Shown piece after piece: positions 28,000 to 40,807 of a DNA stretch of 64,000 nucleotides. The stretch's first letter is position 1; each line of letters begins with the position of its first letter. A model generated the notes under the pieces. That model was not told where the DNA came from. It saw only the letters and a program-made list of their open reading frames with translations, and did not search any database. Both the position numbers and the translations under genes were made by a program. The DNA is from Oscillospiraceae bacterium (GTDB lineage Bacteria > Bacillota > Clostridia > Oscillospirales > Ruminococcaceae). The stretch is taken from assembly GCA_017460835.1 (NCBI GenBank), contig JAFUAD010000063.1, forward strand, positions 1-64,000, in the 5' to 3' direction.

Positions 28000-28437
28000 T
28001 CATTTTTCGCGGATGTGTTCAGCCAGCAGCCGCAGCCCCTCCAGATAGCCGGGGAAGCCCTTGCCCTTGACCGTCGCGATGCACGCCTGCCGGATATAGG
28101 ATATCTTCCGGAATTCGTCGCGCGAATCGGGGTCGGAGATATGCACCTCAACAGTCGGGAGCTGCACCGCCTTGACCGCATCGAGCAGCGCGACGCTGGT
28201 GTGCGTATAGGCCGCAGGGTTGATCAGAATGCCGTCCGCGGTGCCGTATGCCTCCTGAATTTTGTCAACGAGCGCGCCCTCGTGATTGGACTGGAAGAAC
28301 GTGACCGTAATGCCGAGGCGCGCCGCCTCCTCCGAAATCATTGCCTCCAGATCGGCGAGGGTCTCCGTGCCGTAGTGCTCCGGCTCACGCACGCCCAGCA
28401 TGTTCAAATTCGGCCCATTCAGTACGAGTATATGCAC
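28000..28437 (-). CDS. aroQ: 3-dehydroquinate dehydratase, type II
   Basis: 145 residues from GTG 28437, the normal length. Signature blocks are LVLNGPNLNMLG, the lid residue region, INPAAYTHTSVALLDAV and VEVHISDP. GGAGGG stands 6 bases ahead of the GTG. The start lies inside the end of the aroE-aroK gene (53-bp overlap in another frame). It is the last gene of the aromatic operon. Confidence 0.93.
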   Translation of the reverse strand: MHILVLNGPNLNMLGVREPEHYGTETLADLEAMISEEAARLGITVTFFQSNHEGALVDKIQEAYGTADGILINPAAYTHTSVALLDAVKAVQLPTVEVHISDPDSRDEFRKISYIRQACIATVKGKGFPGYLEGLRLLAEHIREK

Positions 28438-29674
28438 AGAAATCCCTCCAGATCTCAGCCGCCGCAGCCTCGGGCGTGCTGTTGTTTTCGATTGCGGCAT
28501 GCGCAAACCGCCGGTACATCGGCATCCGCGTCTCCGCCATTTTGTCAAGATCGGCGCCCAGCGAGAGCGGCCGCCCCTCGCGGCTCAGCTCGGAGACCGG
28601 GCGGCAGATCTGATAAATTCTGCCGTTGCTGCGCAGCGGGGCATAGTTGCGCTCCTGCGTGACGACGCCGCCGCCGGTGACGAGAATCACGCCGCGCTTT
28701 GCGCTCTGCTCCTCCACGACCGCCGATTCGATCTCGCGGAACACCGGCTCGCCGCCGTCCGCGAAAATCTCGGGAATGCTGCGGTTTTCGCGCGTCACGA
28801 TCTCAGCGTCGAGGTCAATGACCGTTCTGCCGGTCAGCTTGCCGAGCGCCGCGCCGATGACGGTCTTTCCGCTGCCGGGCATGCCGACCAGCACGATATT
28901 TTCCGCATCGCGCTGCATTTCCGCGCCGATTTCGGCGATTTTTGCATCGTCAATGCTGCGGGAGAAGAAATGCTCCGCCGCTTGCTTGGCCTGTGCGACG
29001 AGCATGGTCAGCCCGCCGGCATAGGGGATGCCGAGCGCCTCAGCCTGAAGCAGCAGGGCGGTGCGCTGCGGGTTGTAGATCACATCCGCGACGCCCCTGA
29101 GATTCGGGAAATCGGTCAGCGTGACGAGCGATGCGCCCGCCTTCGGGTACATCCCGACCGGCGTCGCATTGACGATCAGCGTAGTGCTCCCGAAGAAGCG
29201 CGGCAGGTCATCGTAGCTGTATTCGGTGCCGGCGAGGTCGAGAACAGTCAGCGCCGCGCAGCCATCGAGCTTCGCGATCGCCTGAATCGTCTGCGAAACA
29301 CCGCCGTTTCCGAGCACAAGCACATGCTGCCCCGCAAAGGTCAGCCCGCCCGCGCGCATCATGCAGCGCAGTCCGTAGGCGTCGGTGTTGTAGCCCTTCC
29401 ATGTGCCGTCCTCCTGCCGCACCAGCGTATTGACGCTGCCGATCGCCTCGGCGAGCGGATCGAGCGATGCGCAGAGCGGGATGACGTCGAGCTTGTACGG
29501 GATCGTGACATTGAGCGCTTTGAGGCGCGTGTCGCTCAGGAATTCCGCAAGCTCCTCCGGCTCCAGCTCATAGAGCGAATAGTGCGGATTGCCGAGCGCC
29601 ATGTGAATTTCCGGCGAAATACTGTGCCCGAGCTTTCGCCCGATCAGCCCGTAGGGCGTTTTGAATCCGGTCAT
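28385..29674 (-). CDS. aroEK: Fused shikimate dehydrogenase-shikimate kinase
   Basis: 429 residues in two enzymes. Residues 1-250 are AroE: GHSISPEIH, catalytic K61 in NVTIPYK, D98 in YNTDAYG and the NADP loop LGNGGVSQ. Residues 258-429 are AroK: Walker A GMPGSGKT (264-271), the shikimate-binding DLDAEI and the VTGGGVV loop. The fusion joins two consecutive steps of the pathway, so shikimate may pass directly between sites. AGGAGG lies before ATG 29674; pheA ends 15 bases upstream. Confidence 0.93.
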   Translation of the reverse strand: MTGFKTPYGLIGRKLGHSISPEIHMALGNPHYSLYELEPEELAEFLSDTRLKALNVTIPYKLDVIPLCASLDPLAEAIGSVNTLVRQEDGTWKGYNTDAYGLRCMMRAGGLTFAGQHVLVLGNGGVSQTIQAIAKLDGCAALTVLDLAGTEYSYDDLPRFFGSTTLIVNATPVGMYPKAGASLVTLTDFPNLRGVADVIYNPQRTALLLQAEALGIPYAGGLTMLVAQAKQAAEHFFSRSIDDAKIAEIGAEMQRDAENIVLVGMPGSGKTVIGAALGKLTGRTVIDLDAEIVTRENRSIPEIFADGGEPVFREIESAVVEEQSAKRGVILVTGGGVVTQERNYAPLRSNGRIYQICRPVSELSREGRPLSLGADLDKMAETRMPMYRRFAHAAIENNSTPEAAAAEIWRDFCAYTRTEWAEFEHAGRA

Positions 29675-29689: not shown

Positions 29690-30835
29690 TCAGCCGATCA
29701 TTTCGGAGTAATTGCCGAGCAGCGTGAAGGAATCGCAGGTGCGCTCCATCTCGCAGAGCAGCCCGAGCACGCCGTCCTGATGCAGATTGCATTCGAGATC
29801 CATAAAGAACCGGTACGAGAAATTCGTGCCGGGAATCGGCATACTTTCGAGCTTGCACATGTTGATGCCGAGCGCGGAGATTTTCGCGATCATCTGATAG
29901 AGGGCGCCCGGCGAGTTCGCGCAGTTCACGAGAATGCTCATGCGCTCCGCGCCGGCAAAGCACTGTGCGCCCTTTGCGATGCAGAGGAAGCGCGTGTCAT
30001 TGTTCGATTCATTCTGGATTGCGTCGGTCAGGACGGAGAGGCCGTAGAGCTTTGCGCACGCCTCGCCCGCGATTGCCGCGACGGATTTGTCGTGTGCCTC
30101 CGCAGCGCGCTGTGCCGCATGCGCCGTGCTGGTGCAGGGGATGACATCCACGCCCTCAAGAGACGAAATGAATTTGCTGCACTGCCCCGCCGCCTGTTCA
30201 TGCGTGTAGATTGTCTTGATATCGCTGATTCTGGCATCCTTCTGCGTCAGCAGCACATGCCGGATCAGCAGCCGGACGCTCCGGACGATGCACAGATCGG
30301 GCTCGCGCAGCAGATCAAACACCTGCCGGACTGAGCCGTTGACGCTGTTTTCGATCGGCAGGATGCCGAACTGACAGAGCCCCGCCTGTACCGCCTGCAC
30401 GACCGCGCGGAAGCCGTCCACGAACATGATATCGCCCTTCGGGAACAGGCGGTCTGCCGCCGAGCCCGCGTGGCTGCCTTCGACGCCGGAGACCGCAATG
30501 CGGCCGCTCTGCGGGAAAACTGCCTGCTCATGGCTGCACATTGCCGCGACCCGCGCCGCAACACTCGTCGCCGGGATGAGCTGCGCGGCCTGCTGTGCGC
30601 GGGAAAGCTCCAGAATCATGCGGAAAAGCTGGTGCGCCGCATCGCCGTGGCTGCCGGCATTTTCGCGTACCTTCATCAGAATCGCGCGCTCCCGTACCGG
30701 GTCGTAGAGCGGGCGGGAGGGGTCGCGGCGCTTGGCATCCGCAACCTTGTCGATCAGATCCATGCGCCTGACAAACAGTGCCAGCAGCTCGCTGTCAACC
30801 GCGTCAAGCTCCGTGCGAATCTCTGCTAAATCCAT
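29690..30835 (-). CDS. pheA: Bifunctional chorismate mutase / prephenate dehydratase
   Basis: 381 residues. Residues 1-90 are the AroQ-type chorismate mutase (IRTELDAVDSELLALFVRRM). Residues ~110-285 are prephenate dehydratase (ILPIENSVNGSV, HEQAAGQC, NDTRFLCI). Residues ~295-375 are an ACT domain (NSPGALYQMIAKISALGINM, KLESMPIPG) that normally gives feedback inhibition by phenylalanine. It commits chorismate to Phe and supplies prephenate to TyrA. AAAGGAG precedes ATG 30835. Confidence 0.94.
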   Translation of the reverse strand: MDLAEIRTELDAVDSELLALFVRRMDLIDKVADAKRRDPSRPLYDPVRERAILMKVRENAGSHGDAAHQLFRMILELSRAQQAAQLIPATSVAARVAAMCSHEQAVFPQSGRIAVSGVEGSHAGSAADRLFPKGDIMFVDGFRAVVQAVQAGLCQFGILPIENSVNGSVRQVFDLLREPDLCIVRSVRLLIRHVLLTQKDARISDIKTIYTHEQAAGQCSKFISSLEGVDVIPCTSTAHAAQRAAEAHDKSVAAIAGEACAKLYGLSVLTDAIQNESNNDTRFLCIAKGAQCFAGAERMSILVNCANSPGALYQMIAKISALGINMCKLESMPIPGTNFSYRFFMDLECNLHQDGVLGLLCEMERTCDSFTLLGNYSEMIG

Positions 30836-30879: not shown

Positions 30880-31959
30880 TTACTCTGTCAGCATCATATC
30901 GAGCGTGACGAGCGCTGCGACCGCTTCCACGACGGGAACGGCGCGCTGTGCGATGCAGGGGTCGTGCCGGCCTTTGATCTCAAGCTGCGTCTCCTGATGC
31001 GCCGAGAGGGAGACGGTTTTCTGCGGCCGGGAGATCGAGGGCGTCGGCTTGATTCCCACGCGGAACCGGACGGGCATGCCGGTCGTGATGCCGCCGAGGA
31101 TGCCGCCGTTCCGGTTCGTTTCCGTGCGAATTTCGCCGTTTTCGCCGATGCAGAAGGGGTCGTTTGCCTGCGAGCCGCGCAGATCGGAGAGCGCAAAGCC
31201 GTCCCCGAATTCGACGCCCTTGACCGCGGGAATCCCGAACAGCACCCGCGCCAGCCGGTTCTCGACACCGTCAAACATCGGGTCGCCGAGCCCGGCGGGG
31301 AGCCCGGTCACGGCACATTCAATCGTGCCGCCGACGGAGTCGCCATCCGCCCGCGCCGCGAGGATCGCCTGCTGCATCGCCTCGCCCTGCGCATCATTCA
31401 GCACCGGAAACGCCTTCGCCGCAACCGCATCAAAGAGCGCAGCATCCGGCAGCAGCGGGAAAGCATCATCCTGCACCCCGGCCGCCGAACGCAGATGCGC
31501 CCCGACGAATACGCCGCGCCGCACAAGAATTTGCTTTGCAATGCCTCCTGCCGCGCAGACCGGCGCCGTCAGCCGCCCGGAAAAATGCCCGCCGCCGCGC
31601 ATATCCGCATGCCCGTGCCACTTGACGAACGCGGTGTAATCGGCATGCGAGGGGCGCGGCCGGTCGGCGAGATTCTGATAGTCGCCGGAGCGCGTGTTCG
31701 TGTTTTCAATTTCGAGGCAGACCGGGAATCCGGTGGTCTTGCCCTCAAAAATGCCGGAGACGAAGCGCGGAATGTCCGGCTCCTTTCTGGAGGTCGAGAG
31801 GGCGTTCCTGCCGCCCTGCCGGCGCTCCATAAAGCGCGCTAATGCGTCAAAATCGACCGCTTCACCGGCCGGGAGCCCCTCAATCAGAGCGCCGATGCCG
31901 TTCCCGTGCGATTCGCCGAAAACGGACACGCGCAGCCGTTCACCAAAACTCGATGCCAT
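30880..31959 (-). CDS. aroC: Chorismate synthase
   Basis: 359 residues from ATG 31959. It makes chorismate from EPSP using reduced FMN. Signatures are FGESHGNGIGALIEGLPAG, the RPSHADYT loop and GGITTGMPVRFRV. CAGGAGGG lies ahead of this ATG. The upstream epimerase gene ends 1 base before it, so the ribosome site is inside that gene. Confidence 0.95.
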   Translation of the reverse strand: MASSFGERLRVSVFGESHGNGIGALIEGLPAGEAVDFDALARFMERRQGGRNALSTSRKEPDIPRFVSGIFEGKTTGFPVCLEIENTNTRSGDYQNLADRPRPSHADYTAFVKWHGHADMRGGGHFSGRLTAPVCAAGGIAKQILVRRGVFVGAHLRSAAGVQDDAFPLLPDAALFDAVAAKAFPVLNDAQGEAMQQAILAARADGDSVGGTIECAVTGLPAGLGDPMFDGVENRLARVLFGIPAVKGVEFGDGFALSDLRGSQANDPFCIGENGEIRTETNRNGGILGGITTGMPVRFRVGIKPTPSISRPQKTVSLSAHQETQLEIKGRHDPCIAQRAVPVVEAVAALVTLDMMLTE

Positions 31960-31960
31960 G

Positions 31961-32866
31961 CTATCCCTCCTGAAAATTATTTGCAATATAATCCAAAAAC
32001 GGTTTGCGGATCACATCCCCGCGGTGCCCGTGCCACCAGCGGTACGATTCAGCCAATCCCTGCTCCAGCGGGACGGTTTCCGGCAGCAGCGCTTGCTGCG
32101 CGGAGACGTCCAGACGGTAGGCATACGGGTAGAACGGGAAGTAGCTCCTCTGCGGGATTTCCTCGGAAATACGACGAAAAACGGGTTCTTTCCCGGCTGC
32201 ATGATAGCAGATTTTTACCCAATCCTCAGCGGCCACAGTCTCCGGATTTCCGGCATTGAAAATGTGCTGCTGCGGGCGCTGCGCAAGGACTGCTTCGATC
32301 AGGCGGCAGAGGTCGCCGACATGGAAGAATTGCAGCGGCAGACTGCCGTCGCCGGGGATGTAAAACGGGAGCCCCTGCTCGGCACATTCAAACACGAACG
32401 CCTCGCGGTAGATGTTGTTCATCGGGCCGTAGAGGTATGGCGGGCGAATCGCATAGCCCTGCGGGAAACAATCGAAAAGCGCAGATTCTGCGCCGATTTT
32501 GTTTACTCCGTAATCGCCCCAGAACCGGTTTTTGCCAACCGCCTGCTGCTCATGAAAGGGCTGCGGGAGCGTCTCCGGGTAGACGGCGCTGGAGCTGAGC
32601 AGGATGTAGCACCCGACCGCTCCGAGCGCGTCCGCAAGCAGCCGGACGTCCTCGCCGGTGTAGGCTGTGATATCCAGCACTGCATCAAAGCAAGATTGTT
32701 TCAAAATATTGCCGGGGTCATGCCGGTCTGCGCAGATATGCCGGACGCCCTCCGGCTGCGGCCTGCTGCCGCGGTTCAGCACAGAGACCGTGTGGCCCTT
32801 TCCGGCGAAATACGAGGCGACATATCGGCTGACGAACACGGTTCCGCCGGTTACCAGAATCTTCAT
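31961..32866 (-). CDS. NAD-dependent epimerase/dehydratase inside the aro operon
   Basis: 301 residues of the extended short-chain dehydrogenase family. The NAD loop is TGGTVFVSRYVA (a variant of G-x-x-G-x-x-G), with LLSSSAVYPE, the YGVNK active-site pair and RPPYLYGP. Homologues are annotated as nucleotide-sugar epimerases or RNA-binding CSP41-like proteins. No shikimate step needs it. It sits between aroA and aroC with tight spacing, so it is expressed with them for an unknown reason. Confidence 0.85.
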   Translation of the reverse strand: MKILVTGGTVFVSRYVASYFAGKGHTVSVLNRGSRPQPEGVRHICADRHDPGNILKQSCFDAVLDITAYTGEDVRLLADALGAVGCYILLSSSAVYPETLPQPFHEQQAVGKNRFWGDYGVNKIGAESALFDCFPQGYAIRPPYLYGPMNNIYREAFVFECAEQGLPFYIPGDGSLPLQFFHVGDLCRLIEAVLAQRPQQHIFNAGNPETVAAEDWVKICYHAAGKEPVFRRISEEIPQRSYFPFYPYAYRLDVSAQQALLPETVPLEQGLAESYRWWHGHRGDVIRKPFLDYIANNFQEG

Positions 32867-32910: not shown

Positions 32911-34191
32911 TCATGTGTCAGACGGAACGGCATTTCCGCCGAGCGCCCGGTAATCATCGAAAAATCCCGGGTACGATTTGTTGACCGCCTCCGCGCCGAG
33001 AATGGTCACGGGCTGCCCGCATCGCAGCGCAGCGATCGCCGCCGCCATGACGAGGCGGTGGTCATTCTGTGCATCAACGGTTCCGCCGAGAAGCTGTCCG
33101 CCGTAGACGGTCAGTCCGTCCGGCAGCTCATCGACCCGCCCGCCGATTGCACGAAGCAGATTCGCAGTCGCAGTGAGCCGGTCGGACTCCTTCAGCCGCA
33201 GCCGCTCTGCGTGCAGAAAGTGCGACGCCCCCTCTGCGCTGAGTGCTGCCCGAACCGCCAGAATTGGCAGAAGATCCGGGATTTCCTCCATAGATACGTC
33301 GAAATTCAATGCACGATTACAGGAAACAGTCACAGCGCCGCAGCGCTCGGAAATCTCGGCGCCGGCCTGCTGCAAAATCCCACAGATCGCCTTGTCCCCC
33401 TGTGTCGAATCCGGCGAAAGACCGGAAACGGTCAGCGGGGAATCCGCCTGCAAAGCGCCGGCCGTCAGCCAGAATGCCGCATTCGACCAGTCGCCGTCAA
33501 TTTCAATGTGCTCCGGAAAATGAAGCATCTGCTTCCCTTTTATGCGATATTCCGGGATGCCGCCCGTTTCGCTGACGGCGATTTCCGCGCCGAACAGCCG
33601 CAGCGTTTGCAGCGTCATATCGACATAGGCGGCCGATTGCAGCGGGGTCGTCAGCCGGATGATGCTGTCCTCCGCGCACAGCGGCAGCGCCATGAGCAGG
33701 CCGCTCAGGAATTGCGAGCTGATGTTGCCGGGGATTTCGTAAACGCCGCCGCGCAGTGAACCGGCGGCATCGAGCGGGAGCGAGGCCTGCGAAAACTGTA
33801 CGCCATGCGCGGACATTGCATCCGTCAGCGTCCGGATTGGGCGCTCGGGAAGTCGGCCTGCGCCGGTGACGGAAATCGACCCGCACAGGCACATTGCGAC
33901 CGGCAGCAGGAAACGCAGTGTGGAGCCGCTTTCGCCGCAGTCCAGCAGCGCGTGTGCCTGCCGCCGCACCGGCGTCACGAACAGCCCGTCATCGGCCTCG
34001 CGGAAGTCCGCGCCGAGCGACCTCAGGCAGCGGATTGTCGCCGCAATATCATCACAAAACGGCGCCCGCAGCGGCAGAAATCCGCCGTTTTCCGAGCACG
34101 CCGCGCAGATGAGCTTGCGGTGTGCGTCCGATTTCGACGGAATTGCCCGCACGGTTCCGGCGAGCGTCCCCGGATAGCAGGTTATGTTCAT
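32911..34191 (-). CDS. aroA: 5-enolpyruvylshikimate-3-phosphate synthase
   Basis: 426 residues. Substrate loops visible: IPSKSDAHRK, CGESGSTLRFLLPV (usual form G-N-S/A-G-T), the phrase SQFLSGLLMALPL and the later KESDRLTATANL with DHRLVMAAAI. It joins shikimate-3-phosphate and phosphoenolpyruvate. The start overlaps the aroB stop by 4 bases. The ESGST form in place of NAGTAMR fits the class II-like glyphosate-tolerant branch, but tolerance cannot be read from this alone. Confidence 0.94.
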   Translation of the reverse strand: MNITCYPGTLAGTVRAIPSKSDAHRKLICAACSENGGFLPLRAPFCDDIAATIRCLRSLGADFREADDGLFVTPVRRQAHALLDCGESGSTLRFLLPVAMCLCGSISVTGAGRLPERPIRTLTDAMSAHGVQFSQASLPLDAAGSLRGGVYEIPGNISSQFLSGLLMALPLCAEDSIIRLTTPLQSAAYVDMTLQTLRLFGAEIAVSETGGIPEYRIKGKQMLHFPEHIEIDGDWSNAAFWLTAGALQADSPLTVSGLSPDSTQGDKAICGILQQAGAEISERCGAVTVSCNRALNFDVSMEEIPDLLPILAVRAALSAEGASHFLHAERLRLKESDRLTATANLLRAIGGRVDELPDGLTVYGGQLLGGTVDAQNDHRLVMAAAIAALRCGQPVTILGAEAVNKSYPGFFDDYRALGGNAVPSDT

Positions 34192-35258
34192 GCCGGCGCC
34201 TCCTGTCCGTCCGCAAAGAGCGCTGAGAGCGCACTGATCGGGATTTTTTCCATGCGGCAGCGGCCGATCGCCTCGGGCAGAATCACCGTAATGTCAGAAG
34301 CTGCGGCCTTTTTGTCAATCGCCGCGATCCTTGCCATATCGTCCGGGCTGAACGGCGAGACGACCGGGAGCCCCGCGCGGCGCAGCGTGAACAGGATGCG
34401 CTCGCCCGCATCGGCCGCAAGCAAGCCGCGTCTGACCGCAGCCCGCGTGACGATCGCCGTGCCGATCGCGACGGCGTGACCGTGCGAAATGCCGAAATCA
34501 CTGAGCCGCTCGATCGCGTGGGCGGCGGTGTGGCCGAGGTTCAGCAGCTTGCGCACACCCTTCTCGTTCGGGTCCTCCGTTACGATCTTCGACTTGTAAA
34601 TCACCGAGCGCACGATGATTTCCTCGTAGCTGCTTTCGGGATCTCCGTGCTCGTAAATCTCGAAAAGTGCCGTATCATCGAGGATTCCGTGCTTGATCGC
34701 CTCTGCTGAGCCGTCGTGAATCTCATGCTGCGAGAGCGTTTGCAGGGTGTCGGTGTCGCAGATGACCGCGAGCGGCTGGTGGAACACGCCCGCGAGATTT
34801 TTGCCGTGGTCGAGGTTGACCGCCGTCTTGCCGCCGACGGATGCATCGACCGCCGCAAGCAGCGTTGTCGGGAGCTGCACAAACGGGATGCCCCGCAGGT
34901 AACAGCCCGCCGCAAAGCCCGTCAGGTCGCCGATGACACCGCCGCCGAGCGCGACTGCAAGGTCGGCGCGGGTCATGTGCGCCTCGCAGAATGCCTCCAG
35001 CAGCGCGCCGAAAACCGCGATCGACTTGCTCTCCTCGCCGGGATTGACGACGAATTCCGAGACGGTGAATCCCGCGCCGGCAAAGGATTTTTTCGCCTGC
35101 TCCATGTAGAGCGGCGCAACATTTTTGTCGCTGACGATCATGACGCGGCAGGGCGCCTTGATTGCGGCGATCTCCGCGCCTGCGGTGTTCAGCAGCCCGC
35201 TGCCGGTCAGAATCGGGTAGGACGCGCCGTCCGGCGTCGTCAGAATGGTTTTATGCAT
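34188..35258 (-). CDS. aroB: 3-dehydroquinate synthase
   Basis: 356 residues. NAD and metal sites are visible in VALGGGVIGDLTGFAAG, LPTTLLAAVDASVGGKTAVN, the NLGHTAAHAIE metal histidine and SHGHAVAIG. It cyclises DAHP. GGAG lies before ATG 35258; aroA overlaps its stop. Confidence 0.95.
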   Translation of the reverse strand: MHKTILTTPDGASYPILTGSGLLNTAGAEIAAIKAPCRVMIVSDKNVAPLYMEQAKKSFAGAGFTVSEFVVNPGEESKSIAVFGALLEAFCEAHMTRADLAVALGGGVIGDLTGFAAGCYLRGIPFVQLPTTLLAAVDASVGGKTAVNLDHGKNLAGVFHQPLAVICDTDTLQTLSQHEIHDGSAEAIKHGILDDTALFEIYEHGDPESSYEEIIVRSVIYKSKIVTEDPNEKGVRKLLNLGHTAAHAIERLSDFGISHGHAVAIGTAIVTRAAVRRGLLAADAGERILFTLRRAGLPVVSPFSPDDMARIAAIDKKAAASDITVILPEAIGRCRMEKIPISALSALFADGQEAPA

Positions 35259-36222: not shown

Positions 36223-37074
36223 TTATGATTCTGATGTGTCCGGATGCAGCCCTGTCAGCGCAGTGAACGCTTCCGCTTCATACTCCGGAATCAGCAGATA
36301 GAAATCGCCTTTGGCATCCGTAATCCCGATTTGAAAGCAGTGTGCAAACAGTGTTCCGAACTGGTTGACTGTGATTTTGAACTGCCGGTATCTGCCGCTG
36401 TGATACGGCTCGGATTTGTGCCAGTCTGCAAAGCTGCACCGCTTTTTCAGGCGCTTCATCGTGCGCAGCGCAGAGCACGGAATCTCCCGGACATCCTCTG
36501 TACTCGCAAGAAAGAGGCTGCCGTCCTGCACATAGGCATAGAGATCGAGATTGAGATAATCGTTGAAGCCGTCCAGACTTTTGTGCTTCGGCTTGCCGTC
36601 CTTCATGACGAACCGTTCCGCGAGCACATCGAGATCCAGAGCAGATTCCGGCACGCCGAGCGATTCGCGCGCCTGACGGAGCAGCACCTCTGCACGATCG
36701 TCCAATTCCTGTGCCTCAGCGGCTTCGGCGGTCTGCTTCCGGCGCCGCTTTCCGAGGAGGAACAGCACCAGCCACAGCACAAAACAGATGCCGCCAAGCC
36801 AATAGAGCCACGGCGCATTCCGGTATCCCGCAGAAGGGTCACCGGCGGAGACCGCACAGAGCAGGATCACCGCCCAGCCAAACCAGCAAAGCGTCTTTGC
36901 GATTTCAGCAGGCAGCGGCAGACCGGCTTTCTTTTCCTGCTGTGCGTATTGTTCGCAGAACGCCTCTATTTCGGCAGTCTGTTCTGTATCCGCCCGCCGG
37001 ATCACAAAGACATCTCCGGCAAACCCGGTGCTGTCTGCATCCTCTGTGATATTCACACCAAACAGATTCTGCAT
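36223..37074 (-). CDS. Unknown two-helix membrane protein in the aro operon
   Basis: 283 residues. Two membrane helices lie at about 62-80 and 88-108, followed by a basic stretch (GKRRRKQ) and a soluble domain with alternating strands (LYAYVQDGSLFLAS, YRQFKITVNQFGTLF, FYLLIPEYEAEAF). It starts 3 bases after the acetyltransferase stop, so it is co-transcribed with the aro genes. No family is recognised and no link to the pathway is visible. Confidence 0.75.
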   Translation of the reverse strand: MQNLFGVNITEDADSTGFAGDVFVIRRADTEQTAEIEAFCEQYAQQEKKAGLPLPAEIAKTLCWFGWAVILLCAVSAGDPSAGYRNAPWLYWLGGICFVLWLVLFLLGKRRRKQTAEAAEAQELDDRAEVLLRQARESLGVPESALDLDVLAERFVMKDGKPKHKSLDGFNDYLNLDLYAYVQDGSLFLASTEDVREIPCSALRTMKRLKKRCSFADWHKSEPYHSGRYRQFKITVNQFGTLFAHCFQIGITDAKGDFYLLIPEYEAEAFTALTGLHPDTSES

Positions 37075-38875: not shown

Positions 38876-38917
38876 GAAAAATAAAGCGCTCACAGCCGGG
38901 ATGACTGTCAGCGCTTT
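38876..38917 (-). terminator. Attenuator terminator in the aro leader
   Basis: On the minus strand AAAGCGCTGACAG and CTGTGAGCGCTTT form a 13-bp stem with a single mismatch, then ATTTTTCTG. It stands 68 bases after the leader peptide stop and 21 bases before aroF. A competing pairing of 38955-38966 (CTTGTGCATTGC) with 38914-38924 (GCATGCAAAAG) would take part of its 5' arm; this antiterminator is tentative. Confidence 0.8.
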
Positions 38918-38984
38918 TGCATGCATATCAAAGACGGGGTGGAGGAATGCAGCCGCAATGCACAAGTTGTTCAGCCATGCCGAT

Positions 38985-39056
38985 TCAGACCTTATCCGGA
39001 AAATAGATAAAGCCGTAAAATCGGGATTCAACTGCTGCACTGTGCAGAAGGTGCAT
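38985..39056 (-). CDS. Aromatic-rich leader peptide of the aro operon
   Basis: A 23-codon open frame begins with ATG at 39056, eight bases after AGGAG, and 35 bases downstream of the -10 box. The peptide starts MHLLHSAAVE and contains RFYGFIYFP: five aromatic residues (three Phe, two Tyr) within seven. It ends with TGA at 38985. Stalling of ribosomes at these codons when charged tRNA-Phe or tRNA-Tyr is scarce would change folding of the downstream leader and relieve the terminator at 38876-38917. This is the classical pheA/trp-type attenuation layout. The mechanism is inferred from the sequence. Confidence 0.8.
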   Translation of the reverse strand: MHLLHSAAVESRFYGFIYFPDKV

Positions 39057-39090
39057 GGCTCAGCACTCCTTTCGCTTCCTTGTAATTCTC

Positions 39091-39119
39091 ATTATAGCAT
39101 AAAATACACAGAATTGCAA
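39091..39119 (-). promoter_or_regulatory. Promoter of the aromatic amino acid operon
   Basis: On the minus strand TTGCAA (39119-39114) and TATAAT (39096-39091), 17-base spacer. The same -35 variant is used by the gene at 50181. Confidence 0.78.
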
Positions 39120-39172
39120 TAGGCAATTTGCACAAACATTTTACCGCGTTAAAGTCGTGCAGCGTGAAAGTG

Positions 39173-39391: not shown

Positions 39392-39566
39392 GTGCCATCG
39401 TCCTTTCGGGGCATCGGAATCCATTTTTATAATGTCCGCCTTGAATATATTATAATGGGAGTATACCCGGATATCGGAGGAATAGGACAAATTGACCAGA
39501 GAATGTGGAATCTGCACAAACCGCGCTCCGCCTTGTTATTCAAATCGGAGATTTTTCGCATTTTGG

Positions 39567-39595
39567 TTGACTTTATGGACAATATGTCCTATAAT
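39567..39595 (+). promoter_or_regulatory. Promoter with an operator-like palindrome in its spacer
   Basis: TTGACT (39567-39572) and TATAAT (39590-39595), 17-base spacer. The spacer contains the perfect dyad GGACAATATGTCC at 39577-39589. More GGACA/TGTCC half-sites occur at 39434 and 39486 towards the XRE gene. Confidence 0.75.
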
Positions 39596-39631
39596 GACGA
39601 TGGAGGGCCATCACCGAAAGGAGTGTTTGTT

Positions 39632-40807
39632 ATGAAAAAACTGTTCCTGATTATCTGCTCGCTGTTTGTTCTGTTATCGGTCGGCGGCTGCGGAGAATGC
39701 GATCACATCTGGAAAGAAGCCGACTGCACAAGTGCCCGAATATGTGAAAAATGCGGCAAAACCGAGGGCGAACCGCTGGGGCATAACTGGGAGGATGCTA
39801 CCTGTACCGAACCGAAAACATGCTCTGTCTGCGGGGAAACGGAAGGCGAAGCGCTCGGCCATGAGTGGCTGGAGGCTACCTGTGTAGACCCGAAAAAATG
39901 TTCTGTATGCGGAGCGACCGAGGGGAAAGAACTGGGGCATACATGGGTAGATGCGACCTGCACGGAACCGAAAACCTGTGCGGTTTGTGGGGAGACGAGA
40001 GGAGGGACGAGTCCTCATGTAGTAGCAGATCAGACATTGCTCTGCACGCAGGAGACGGAGTGTATCAACTGCGGTCAAATTATCCCCATACAAGGGCATA
40101 TATGGTCGGACGCTACCTGTACCGAGCCCAAAACTTGTTGGGTTTGCGGCGAAACTGAGGGAAAGGCACTGGGGCATGACTGGGAAGCCGCGACCTGTGA
40201 GCATCCCAAAACATGCAAAGTATGTCATGAAACCGAAGGCGAGCTTGCAAATCATAAATGGGTTGCAGCTACCTGCACAGAGCCGAAGCATTGTGAAGTG
40301 TGCGGCGAGACTGACGGGGAAGAGCTCGGTCATGATTTTGTTCGTGATATTATTATTGAAGCAACATTTACTGAAAATGGAAAATACCGGGATAAATGCA
40401 CCCGATGCGGTAAGACCGGCGAGTATGAACAAATATATTGGCTGACCGATGAGGAGAAGATACAAAAAATCAAAAAAACAGGAAAAAGATATACATATGA
40501 TCAAATTGCCCGTAATCCCGACAAATATATGGACACTCCTGCTATCTACACGGGAGAAGTGATACAGGTTTTGCAAAGCGGGAACAATTTGACCCTGAGA
40601 GTCGATATCACGGCGGTTCCCGGATATACGAGAACGTTTTATGAAGATACAATTATGGTAAAATACACTCTGCCAGACGGTGCTCCGCGAATTCTTGAGG
40701 ATGATATTGTAACGATTTACTGTATAAACAAGGGACTGTATACTTATGAAAGTGTCATGGGTGCGGATATAACGGTTCCTCTTGTCGAGGCATACTCTAT
40801 CGAATAA
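39632..40807 (+). CDS. Lipoprotein with about eight Cys-rich tandem repeats
   Basis: 391 residues with a signal peptide and lipobox (LLSVGGC, C20). From residue 23 to about 255 there are eight repeats of 26-27 residues on the pattern H-x-W-x-x-A-T-C-T-E-P-K-T-C-x-V-C-G-E-T-E-G; each has one single Cys and a C-x-x-C pair, like small zinc ribbons. One unit (TECINCGQ) is degenerate. The C-terminal 110 residues form a strand-rich domain (TGEVIQVLQSGNNLTLRV) of OB-like character. Ligand unknown; zinc binding or disulfide-linked rods outside the cell are both possible. GAAAGGAG precedes ATG 39632. Confidence 0.82.
   Translation: MKKLFLIICSLFVLLSVGGCGECDHIWKEADCTSARICEKCGKTEGEPLGHNWEDATCTEPKTCSVCGETEGEALGHEWLEATCVDPKKCSVCGATEGKELGHTWVDATCTEPKTCAVCGETRGGTSPHVVADQTLLCTQETECINCGQIIPIQGHIWSDATCTEPKTCWVCGETEGKALGHDWEAATCEHPKTCKVCHETEGELANHKWVAATCTEPKHCEVCGETDGEELGHDFVRDIIIEATFTENGKYRDKCTRCGKTGEYEQIYWLTDEEKIQKIKKTGKRYTYDQIARNPDKYMDTPAIYTGEVIQVLQSGNNLTLRVDITAVPGYTRTFYEDTIMVKYTLPDGAPRILEDDIVTIYCINKGLYTYESVMGADITVPLVEAYSIE

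Follow-up and report, generated by a model that had tools for sequence, protein, structure and literature searches.

How does a member of the Clostridia adjust the expression of its genes for phenylalanine and tyrosine synthesis? The question is raised by a run of 11 genes in the window, by which we mean the whole 64,000-nucleotide stretch of an Oscillospiraceae genome that was analysed here. T-boxes are the usual answer for amino-acid genes in the Oscillospirales and the wider Clostridia, whereas an earlier note on this locus had proposed a transcription attenuator with a Phe/Tyr leader peptide. Conservation, covariation, coding constraint and simulated ribosome stalling support that proposal, and we conclude that the run is very probably controlled by a ribosome-mediated attenuator that responds to codon starvation through a bivalent leader with both Phe and Tyr codons. 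The 11 frames, described before as an aromatic operon, are indeed present on one strand (minus) with gaps of at most 77 nt, and are predicted to form an operon from this layout. They are aroF (DAHP synthase; PF00793, PF18152; 37848..38855), a GNAT acetyltransferase gene (PF12746; 37078..37851), a frame to which neither the ORF list nor Pfam assigned a function (36223..37074), tyrA (prephenate dehydrogenase; PF02153, PF20463; 35336..36223), aroB (3-dehydroquinate synthase; 34188..35258), aroA (EPSP synthase; 32911..34191), an NAD-dependent epimerase-like gene (PF01370; 31961..32866), aroC (chorismate synthase; 30880..31986), pheA (chorismate mutase-prephenate dehydratase; 29690..30835), an aroE-aroK fusion (28385..29674) and aroQ (type II dehydroquinase; 28000..28548, listed from a TTG, the real start probably lying further in). 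Since this set joins the common pathway to tyrA and pheA, the operon is expected to make chorismate and to commit it to both Tyr and Phe. No trp gene was found by Pfam among the 11 frames.

The promoter, ribosome binding site, 23-codon frame and terminator all lie on the minus strand upstream of aroF, at the places given to them in the earlier note. The predicted promoter (39091..39119) consists of a −35 element TTGCAA (39119-39114), a 17-nt spacer and an extended −10 element TGC-TATAAT (39096-39091). It scores 10 of 12 letters, and the surrounding 1-kb stretch holds two promoter-like sites against a mean of 0.8 in shuffled sequences; by eye, a similar TTGCA..TGTGCTATAAT arrangement is seen in many relatives of the genus. 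A Shine-Dalgarno sequence AAAGGAG (39066..39072) is located 9 nt 5' of the leader ATG, and a purine-rich site likewise precedes the leader frame in the relatives. The leader ORF (38985..39056; ATG at 39056, stop TGA at 38987-38985) encodes MHLLHSAAVESRFYGFIYFPDKV, in which the sensing cluster RFYGFIYF has, as claimed, five aromatic residues in seven. The protector hairpin 1:2 (38980..39024) overlaps both the Phe/Tyr codons and the stop codon; its outer stem pairs CCGA (39024-39021) with UCGG (38983-38980) and its inner stem GGCUUUAUC (39014-39006) with GAUAAGGUC (38996-38988). Region 2 (AUGGCUG, 38972..38978) can pair with region 3 (CAGUCAU, 38901..38907), which is part of the 5' arm and loop of the terminator, and this antiterminator helix also uses GG at 38981-38980. 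The intrinsic terminator (38876..38917) has 15-nt arms (38917-38903 and 38897-38883), a loop AUCCC and a following ATTTTTC; with 14 pairs and one G.G mismatch, the 13-bp stem and T tract of the first description were about right. A generic scan missed this terminator, which was found by a dedicated scan that allows the T tract to start within the stem. Only 27 nt separate the terminator stem from aroF. The 216-nt leader folds with −77.4 kcal/mol (z −3.9), which is better than 200 of 200 dinucleotide shuffles.

To define the distribution of the leader among close relatives, we examined 30 genomes of the same genus. An aroF gene was found in 28 of these, the window's genome included, and none was found in G007 and G027. 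The leader is present in 27 of the 28, the exception being G020, in which the contig ends 122 nt before aroF (locus L097). Relatives lacking the frame or its aromatic codons had been named as what would speak against the attenuator; all 27 genomes in which the stretch is visible keep the leader. R1, a covariance model built from 34 leaders, matches in 27 of the 30 genomes at E-values of 8e-17 or lower. Such matches are expected in the 15 genomes where the leader adjoins aroF, since these helped to build the model; the other 12, in which the leader is displaced, were not used in the build and their leaders were found by R1. Weaker matches in the genus (E 6e-5 to 8e-3) include some on the opposite strand of the same terminator, and in G012 the contig ends before the terminator. 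The alignment of leaders that the earlier note had proposed as a check gave the predicted picture: the aromatic codons and pairing arms are conserved, while the N-terminal codons drift. The 23-codon frame itself is real but represents a short form. In 23 of the 27 genomes the frame has 30-43 codons and runs through or past region 2, whereas frames of 22-23 codons occur in four (the window, L105, L155 and L160), the TGA of the window leader falling just before region 2. The metagenome-assembled genome G017 carries three leaders, the extra ones being on contigs C205 (L163) and C244 (L162). The G017 bin is probably mixed, since L163 appears to be the same sequence as the G025 leader (L150) and the transporter fragment beside it matches that of G025 at 100% identity.

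The substitution pattern in the 27 genus leaders shows what is being conserved. The N-terminal codons have a pN/pS ratio of 0.78 (pS 0.72, pN 0.56), the six aromatic columns one of 0.27 (pS 0.50, pN 0.13), and the two best Tyr columns, which were chosen after the per-column table was seen, one of 0.05 (pS 1.09, pN 0.06). The whole cluster, which is also a stem, gives 0.61 (pS 0.22, pN 0.14) and the region-2 codons 0.97 (pS 0.32, pN 0.31). All or nearly all bases are fixed in two Phe columns, so these allow no judgement. The contrasts indicate that Tyr identity is kept while third bases are free, that the N-terminus drifts, and that the tail is held as RNA. A wider set of 68 aroF leaders, from which two of 70 had been removed because the wrong ORF was picked (L100 and L073, the latter probably a chance ORF), was read with frames taken from the longest start. 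Every one of these leaders contains both Phe and Tyr, with totals of 270 Tyr, 352 Phe and 9 Trp codons and Y/(Y+F) values from 0.12 to 0.75. The locus thus has a short ORF with codons for the products of its operon, and translation of this ORF is predicted.

The possible antiterminator pairing of the first description is supported by covariation. The letters of regions 2 and 3 change jointly between leaders, for instance to UUUGGCUG/CAGUCAAA (L093), UUUGACUG/CAGUCAAA (L101), GCGUUUGGCUG/CAGCGAGACGC with one mismatch (L019), CUGCUGUGG/CCGCGGCAG (L110) and AGUUUUGCUG/CAGUAAAAUU (L054). In 70 of 102 aroF loci, selected for a uORF and a terminator, the antiterminator energy of each locus's own pair averages −15.35 kcal/mol. 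None of 20,000 species swaps of the arms reached this value (mean −12.41, sd 0.31, minimum −13.91 kcal/mol) in a test that ignores relatedness. Taken row by row, the own arm frequently ranks below arms from other loci (the window is 23 of 70), and the own pair beats the mean shuffled linker in 66 of 70 loci. In alignment A1, which holds 34 of 35 chosen leaders (L016 was left out for want of an anchor, and L100 and L107 were trimmed to the right anchor), 90.6% of the cells of helix 2:3 are paired, compared to 18-52% for slid controls. This helix has 12 double-change cells against 2.9 in shuffles and a covariation of 0.250 against 0.173; on two of five measures its signal is weak, with 47 and 35 of 500 shuffles scoring as high. 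Helices 1:2 and 3:4 together are 90.5% paired, with 125 double-change cells against 37.5 and a covariation of 0.427 against 0.230 in shuffles. The inner stem of hairpin 1:2 (columns 66-73/100-107) is paired in 96.0% of cells and the outer stem (57-59/112-114) in 68.0%. The slid versions are disfavoured by construction, since the structure was drawn on the aligned row of L093. As predicted from these sequences, the leader combines a terminator 3:4 with a mutually exclusive antiterminator 2:3.

In the mechanism that we propose, RNA polymerase would start near 39084 and a ribosome would translate the 23-codon leader. When charged tRNA-Phe and tRNA-Tyr are both plentiful, the ribosome should reach the TGA and cover region 2, so that terminator 3:4 would form and transcription would stop ahead of aroF. 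With either tRNA in short supply, the ribosome would stall on one of the five Phe/Tyr codons, within or beside the 5' arm of hairpin 1:2. The freed region 2 could then pair with region 3 before the 3' arm of the terminator is made, and the 11-gene operon would be transcribed. If the leader is not translated at all, hairpin 1:2 is expected to form in the window leader and transcription to terminate. The signal would presumably be uncharged tRNA.

The geometry of the leaders fits this scheme. The distance from the last aromatic codon to the start of the 2:3 core has a median of 23 nt (IQR 19-27). For the folding, the RNA was masked as far as 11 nt beyond the A-site codon and the transcript was cut off at the terminator loop. 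A ribosome placed on the aromatic codons gave a P(2:3) above 0.5 in 61 of 68 leaders, compared to 6 of 68 for one placed at the stop and 21 of 68 when no ribosome was present. In this model a stalled ribosome would thus free region 2 in 61 of 68 leaders, and a ribosome at the stop would cover it in 62 of 68, with the window behaving likewise in both respects. The folding of alternative states asked for in the earlier note gave, for the window, a P(2:3) of 0.99 with the ribosome on the Phe/Tyr codons, 0.00 at the stop and 0.00 without a ribosome; the overlapping protector hairpin 1:2 is therefore predicted to work in the window leader. The 21 leaders in which 2:3 formed without a ribosome imply that the protector hairpin is ineffective in some relatives, and in seven of 68 stalling failed to raise P(2:3) above 0.5. 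With the ribosome at the stop, the terminator forms in all 68.

Stalls at codons 3-23 of the window leader give a P(2:3) of at least 0.52, which is not reached at codons 1-2 or the stop. Over all 68 leaders, the share of stall positions with P(2:3) above 0.5 is 88% within the cluster, 71% for codons upstream and 30% for those that follow. Because upstream stalls free the antiterminator too, the aromatic codons are not distinguished by the RNA alone; the RNA defines a broad range of effective stall positions, the cluster among them, and specificity has to be supplied by the hungry codons. It follows from the same results that a shortage of Phe or of Tyr should each suffice. At equilibrium the full transcript prefers the terminator despite a stalled ribosome (P(3:4) 0.89 in the window). 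Since the terminator is the more stable complete fold, the switch has to be kinetic and decided during transcription, as is the case for known attenuators.

The conservation of the leader could have other causes. The peptide is strikingly conserved in the genus, and GLAEN-like tails are found outside it too, as would be expected if ribosome-bound free Phe or Tyr arrested translation of the sequence YRFYGFIYYxDKVxFGLAE in the manner of TnaC, the amino-acid sequence itself being the signal. Beyond the genus, however, the peptide diverges (to YRYFSFTYFYGKA, EYFYFYFINKS and AYYYYYFTDCSG, for example) while its aromatic density stays, and its aromatic make-up shifts with the downstream gene. The conserved tail encodes region 2 at a pN/pS of 0.97, so that its conservation lies at the RNA level. 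Moreover, induction by an excess of Phe or Tyr makes little sense for a biosynthetic operon, and we regard nascent-peptide arrest as improbable.

A conserved, structured RNA with a terminator is also what a riboswitch or a protein-binding attenuator (a T-box, a TRAP-like site or an unknown aptamer) would present, the ORF then being incidental. This is harder to reconcile with the pN/pS of 0.27 in the aromatic columns and of 0.05 in two Tyr columns, or with in-frame gaps that by eye come in threes. Rfam identified no family in the whole window at gathering score and four poor matches on the leader under relaxed settings (best E 0.07), and the conserved helices are the three of the attenuator with no extra aptamer seen. 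An explanation of this kind is very improbable in our judgement. Terminators also end transcription arriving from upstream, and the element might thus be a plain upstream terminator accompanied by a translated small protein, with an internal promoter driving aroF. In the window the terminator stem and aroF are only 27 nt apart, and the covariation of region 2 with the terminator arm would be left without a reason; this we consider the least probable of the explanations and hardly credible.

We then followed the leader beyond the genus, using as a test a frame of 8-50 codons with at least five F, Y or W in eight codons, applied to aroF loci with at least 385 nt upstream. Such a uORF precedes 73 of 102 aroF genes, and in 70 of the 73 a terminator follows. 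The same test was positive for 105 of 2040 dinucleotide shuffles (5.1%) and for 3 of 96 other tyrA/pheA upstream regions, three true tyrA leaders being set aside; none of these positives came from the 57 valid tyrA/pheA upstreams, in 56 of which an aro gene lies no further than 1.5 kb upstream, and all three came from the other 39, which are tyrA upstreams. One of the 60 tyrA/pheA regions (L218) starts at a contig end and was not counted as an upstream. uORFs above threshold at L254, L265 and L283 have no terminator and were taken as chance. The 29 aroF loci that have no such uORF consist of 12 from the genomes with a displaced leader and 17 with neither; among the latter, L105 has a recognisable leader with fewer aromatics. 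The loci come from records titled Oscillospiraceae, Oscillibacter, Lachnospiraceae, Clostridia, Tissierellia and others, five named loci (L002-L005 and L030) having been dropped as duplicates of genome-derived ones. A cultured carrier is Oscillibacter valericigenes Sjm18-20 (L008), whose aroF is preceded by a leader with Phe and Tyr codons. In four metagenome-assembled genomes titled Victivallales, Thermoguttaceae and Oligosphaeraceae (L025, L031, L037 and L039), aroF is close to clostridial aroF; three of these loci have aromatic leaders and L031 has too little upstream DNA. These cases may reflect transfer or mis-binning, the titles being possibly binning errors.

At E 0.01, R1 matched 60 of the 197 order-level genomes, and at E 1e-4 it matched 19 of 391 at class level; both figures are lower bounds because R1 was built on close relatives and the search filters were stricter there. 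We inspected 26 of the 75 order-level matches, chosen towards second copies and weak matches: 15 precede aroF, three precede tyrA and eight weak ones neither. At class level, 16 of 18 inspected loci lie before aroF and the two weakest do not. Every inspected order- or class-level match with E below 4e-6 precedes aroF or tyrA. Of nine weak matches (E 4e-6 to 2e-3), only L179 lies beside aroF or tyrA, which makes R1 unreliable in this range; neither gene adjoins the other eight (L172, L176, L178, L180, L181, L182, L186 and L187).

The codons in the leader appear to follow the product of the gene downstream. Three leaders before a lone tyrA, which are second copies of the leader (L208/L165, L215/L167 and L251/L173), have Tyr-dominated clusters such as AAAYYYLSLVYYYYYYDKAF and Y/(Y+F) values of 0.78, 0.90 and 0.78, which exceed those of all 68 aroF leaders; the aroF leaders of the same genomes have 0.60, 0.60 and 0.27. 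Both tyrA genes of the tyrA/pheA set that have a valid upstream and no nearby aro gene (L208 and L215) carry a leader. With only three such leaders, two of them from one genus, the Tyr trend rests on two or three origins. A search for Phe-only leaders before lone pheA genes gave none in 30 pheA loci; in 29 of these an aro gene lies 1.5 kb or less upstream. The same scaffold is fitted with Phe and Tyr codons where aroF follows and largely with Tyr codons where a lone tyrA does, a natural experiment in matching the codons that are read to the product.

The mechanism as such is already known; what appears to be new is a bivalent Phe and Tyr leader in Clostridia and its wide range. The enteric trp, phe and his attenuators share with it a leader ORF with cognate codons, the 1:2, 2:3 and 3:4 pairings and a stop at or past region 2, but the present leader is bivalent, occurs in Clostridia and precedes a whole shikimate-Tyr-Phe operon led by aroF. 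The enteric pheL leader is Phe-only. Four published accounts invite comparison, presumably those of Brewer et al. 2021 (PMC8632094), Naville and Gautheret 2010 (PMC2965389), Narunsky et al. 2024 (PMC11109978) and Wels et al. 2008 (PMC2494555). The first describes uORFC-13-1, an element before aroF with a promoter, a uORF containing Phe, an intrinsic terminator and one further base-paired element, for which attenuation was proposed (PMC8632094). In the part of that account available to us, it is represented by 24 examples from Acholeplasma and environmental sequences only, and neither Tyr nor an antiterminator is named. The window leader, being clostridial and carrying Tyr as well as Phe codons, differs from the element as described there in both host and codons. 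Peptide attenuation in Gram-positive bacteria is further described, for other amino acids, genes and taxa, in the His leader peptide of hisS/hisZ in bacilli (PMC2965389) and the ilvB uORF of Corynebacterium (PMC11109978); the available main text of the latter lists eight uORF candidates and does not contain the word phenylalanine. A leader with Phe and Tyr codons ahead of clostridial aroF did not turn up in our search of the open-licence PMC literature, which is not proof of absence. The leader would extend leader-peptide attenuation to the Oscillospirales and the wider Clostridia.

The T-box likewise controls amino-acid genes by tRNA charging, and tyrosine biosynthesis in the B. cereus group is reported to be under T-box control (PMC2494555). 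RF00230 has no match at the window operon, whether the window or the leader alone is searched, and neither T-boxes nor other families were found in 18 further aroF loci (16 without a uORF above threshold, and L063 and L042 with one). In the window's genome, the assembly of which is 88% complete, RF00230 has seven matches, two above the cut-off. Among those below it, a T-box-like match of 82.7 bits (cut-off 93) stops shortly ahead of the apparent trpE, the single PF00425 match in the genome, so that the Trp and the Phe/Tyr branches are probably read by different devices. This suggests that one genome uses two devices, a T-box-like element at the apparent trpE and a peptide attenuator on the Phe/Tyr operon. 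The earlier note had named T-box or TRAP control as usual for such genes in Clostridia. T-box-like elements do occur in the same genome; the leader is no peculiarity of this genome, being common upstream of clostridial aroF and recurring in many gut Clostridia. Two tandem T-box-like matches of 68.2 and 47.4 bits, below the cut-off and a few bases apart, were also seen (G000:C96:12385-12819; L312 and L313).

The order of leader and then aroF, taken for granted at the outset, holds in the window but not in all relatives. In 12 of the 27 leader-bearing genomes of the genus, the leader does not adjoin aroF because an antisense transporter gene sits in between; ten show this on one contig (L150-L159; for example L150:1551-2921, plus strand), and G012 and G005 are consistent with it across contig ends. 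Loss of the leader in these 12 was considered and rejected, as R1 found it about 1.5-1.8 kb away, in two cases on another contig. In the ten genomes with one contig, the antisense gene encodes 457-483 amino acids, starts 128-329 nt from aroF and has its stop 0-25 nt beyond the leader match. The stop falls at the attenuator terminator, which is apparently bidirectional. The protein belongs to the SNF family (PF00209), and its closest solved chain is 4us3 (1.7e-81), which we take to be MhsT, a transporter of hydrophobic and aromatic amino acids; it is thus likely an MhsT-like Na+/amino-acid symporter. Several other members of the genus carry homologues at different sites; a search of the window's genome at E 1e-60 gave none. 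At least four changes between the two arrangements are required on the aroF tree, and well-supported branches force two of these.

Displaced leaders retain the promoter, the Shine-Dalgarno sequence, the frame and YRFYGF. Of 14 leaders of this type, two being the extra G017 contigs, 13 are complete, and simulated stalling raised P(2:3) above 0.5 in 10 of the 13, failing in L150, its twin L163 and L160. L155 is high at the stop too (0.81), and L152, L154 and L157 form 2:3 without a ribosome. The displaced leader hence seems to be maintained despite the antisense gene of about 1.5 kb before aroF. A scan of the last 130 nt ahead of aroF, which in four genomes is less than the whole gap, revealed a promoter-like site (10 of 12 letters) oriented towards the transporter in 9 of the 12 displaced genomes; forward sites were weak (9 of 12 letters) and occurred in 4 of the 12. 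Tentatively, and with more doubt than confidence, we suggest that in these 12 relatives the attenuator acts as a double-throw switch gating an excludon. With Phe and Tyr plentiful, the terminator would end both transcripts and the importer would be expressed; on starvation, readthrough would proceed over the antisense strand of the importer into the aro operon, turning synthesis on and import down. The arrangement resembles noncontiguous operons, excludons and riboswitch-controlled antisense RNA (reviewed in PMC7154746), in that the leader and the operon are separated by a gene on the opposite strand and antisense RNA would arise from readthrough. The gate would here be a leader-peptide attenuator, a combination that does not appear in the available part of that review. 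With this layout, the idea that a single RNA switch decides between synthesis and import of an amino acid can be put to the test.

Several further features were observed 5' of the leader in the window. A box TTTAACGC..TAAAA..TTTGTGCA (39129-39153, minus strand) lies just 5' of the −35 element, is seen by eye in many genus relatives and is possibly a candidate repressor operator. As a wider operator it was dropped, since the genome holds one match, its own site, with up to three mismatches allowed. A gene for a helix-turn-helix regulator (PF01381; 39173-39517, minus strand) is located directly 5' of the leader on the same strand. Finally, the frame at 39392-40807 (plus strand) is predicted to encode a protein with many repeats of the type GHxWxxATCTEPKTCxVCGxTEGxxLGH, which have a regular Cys/His pattern.
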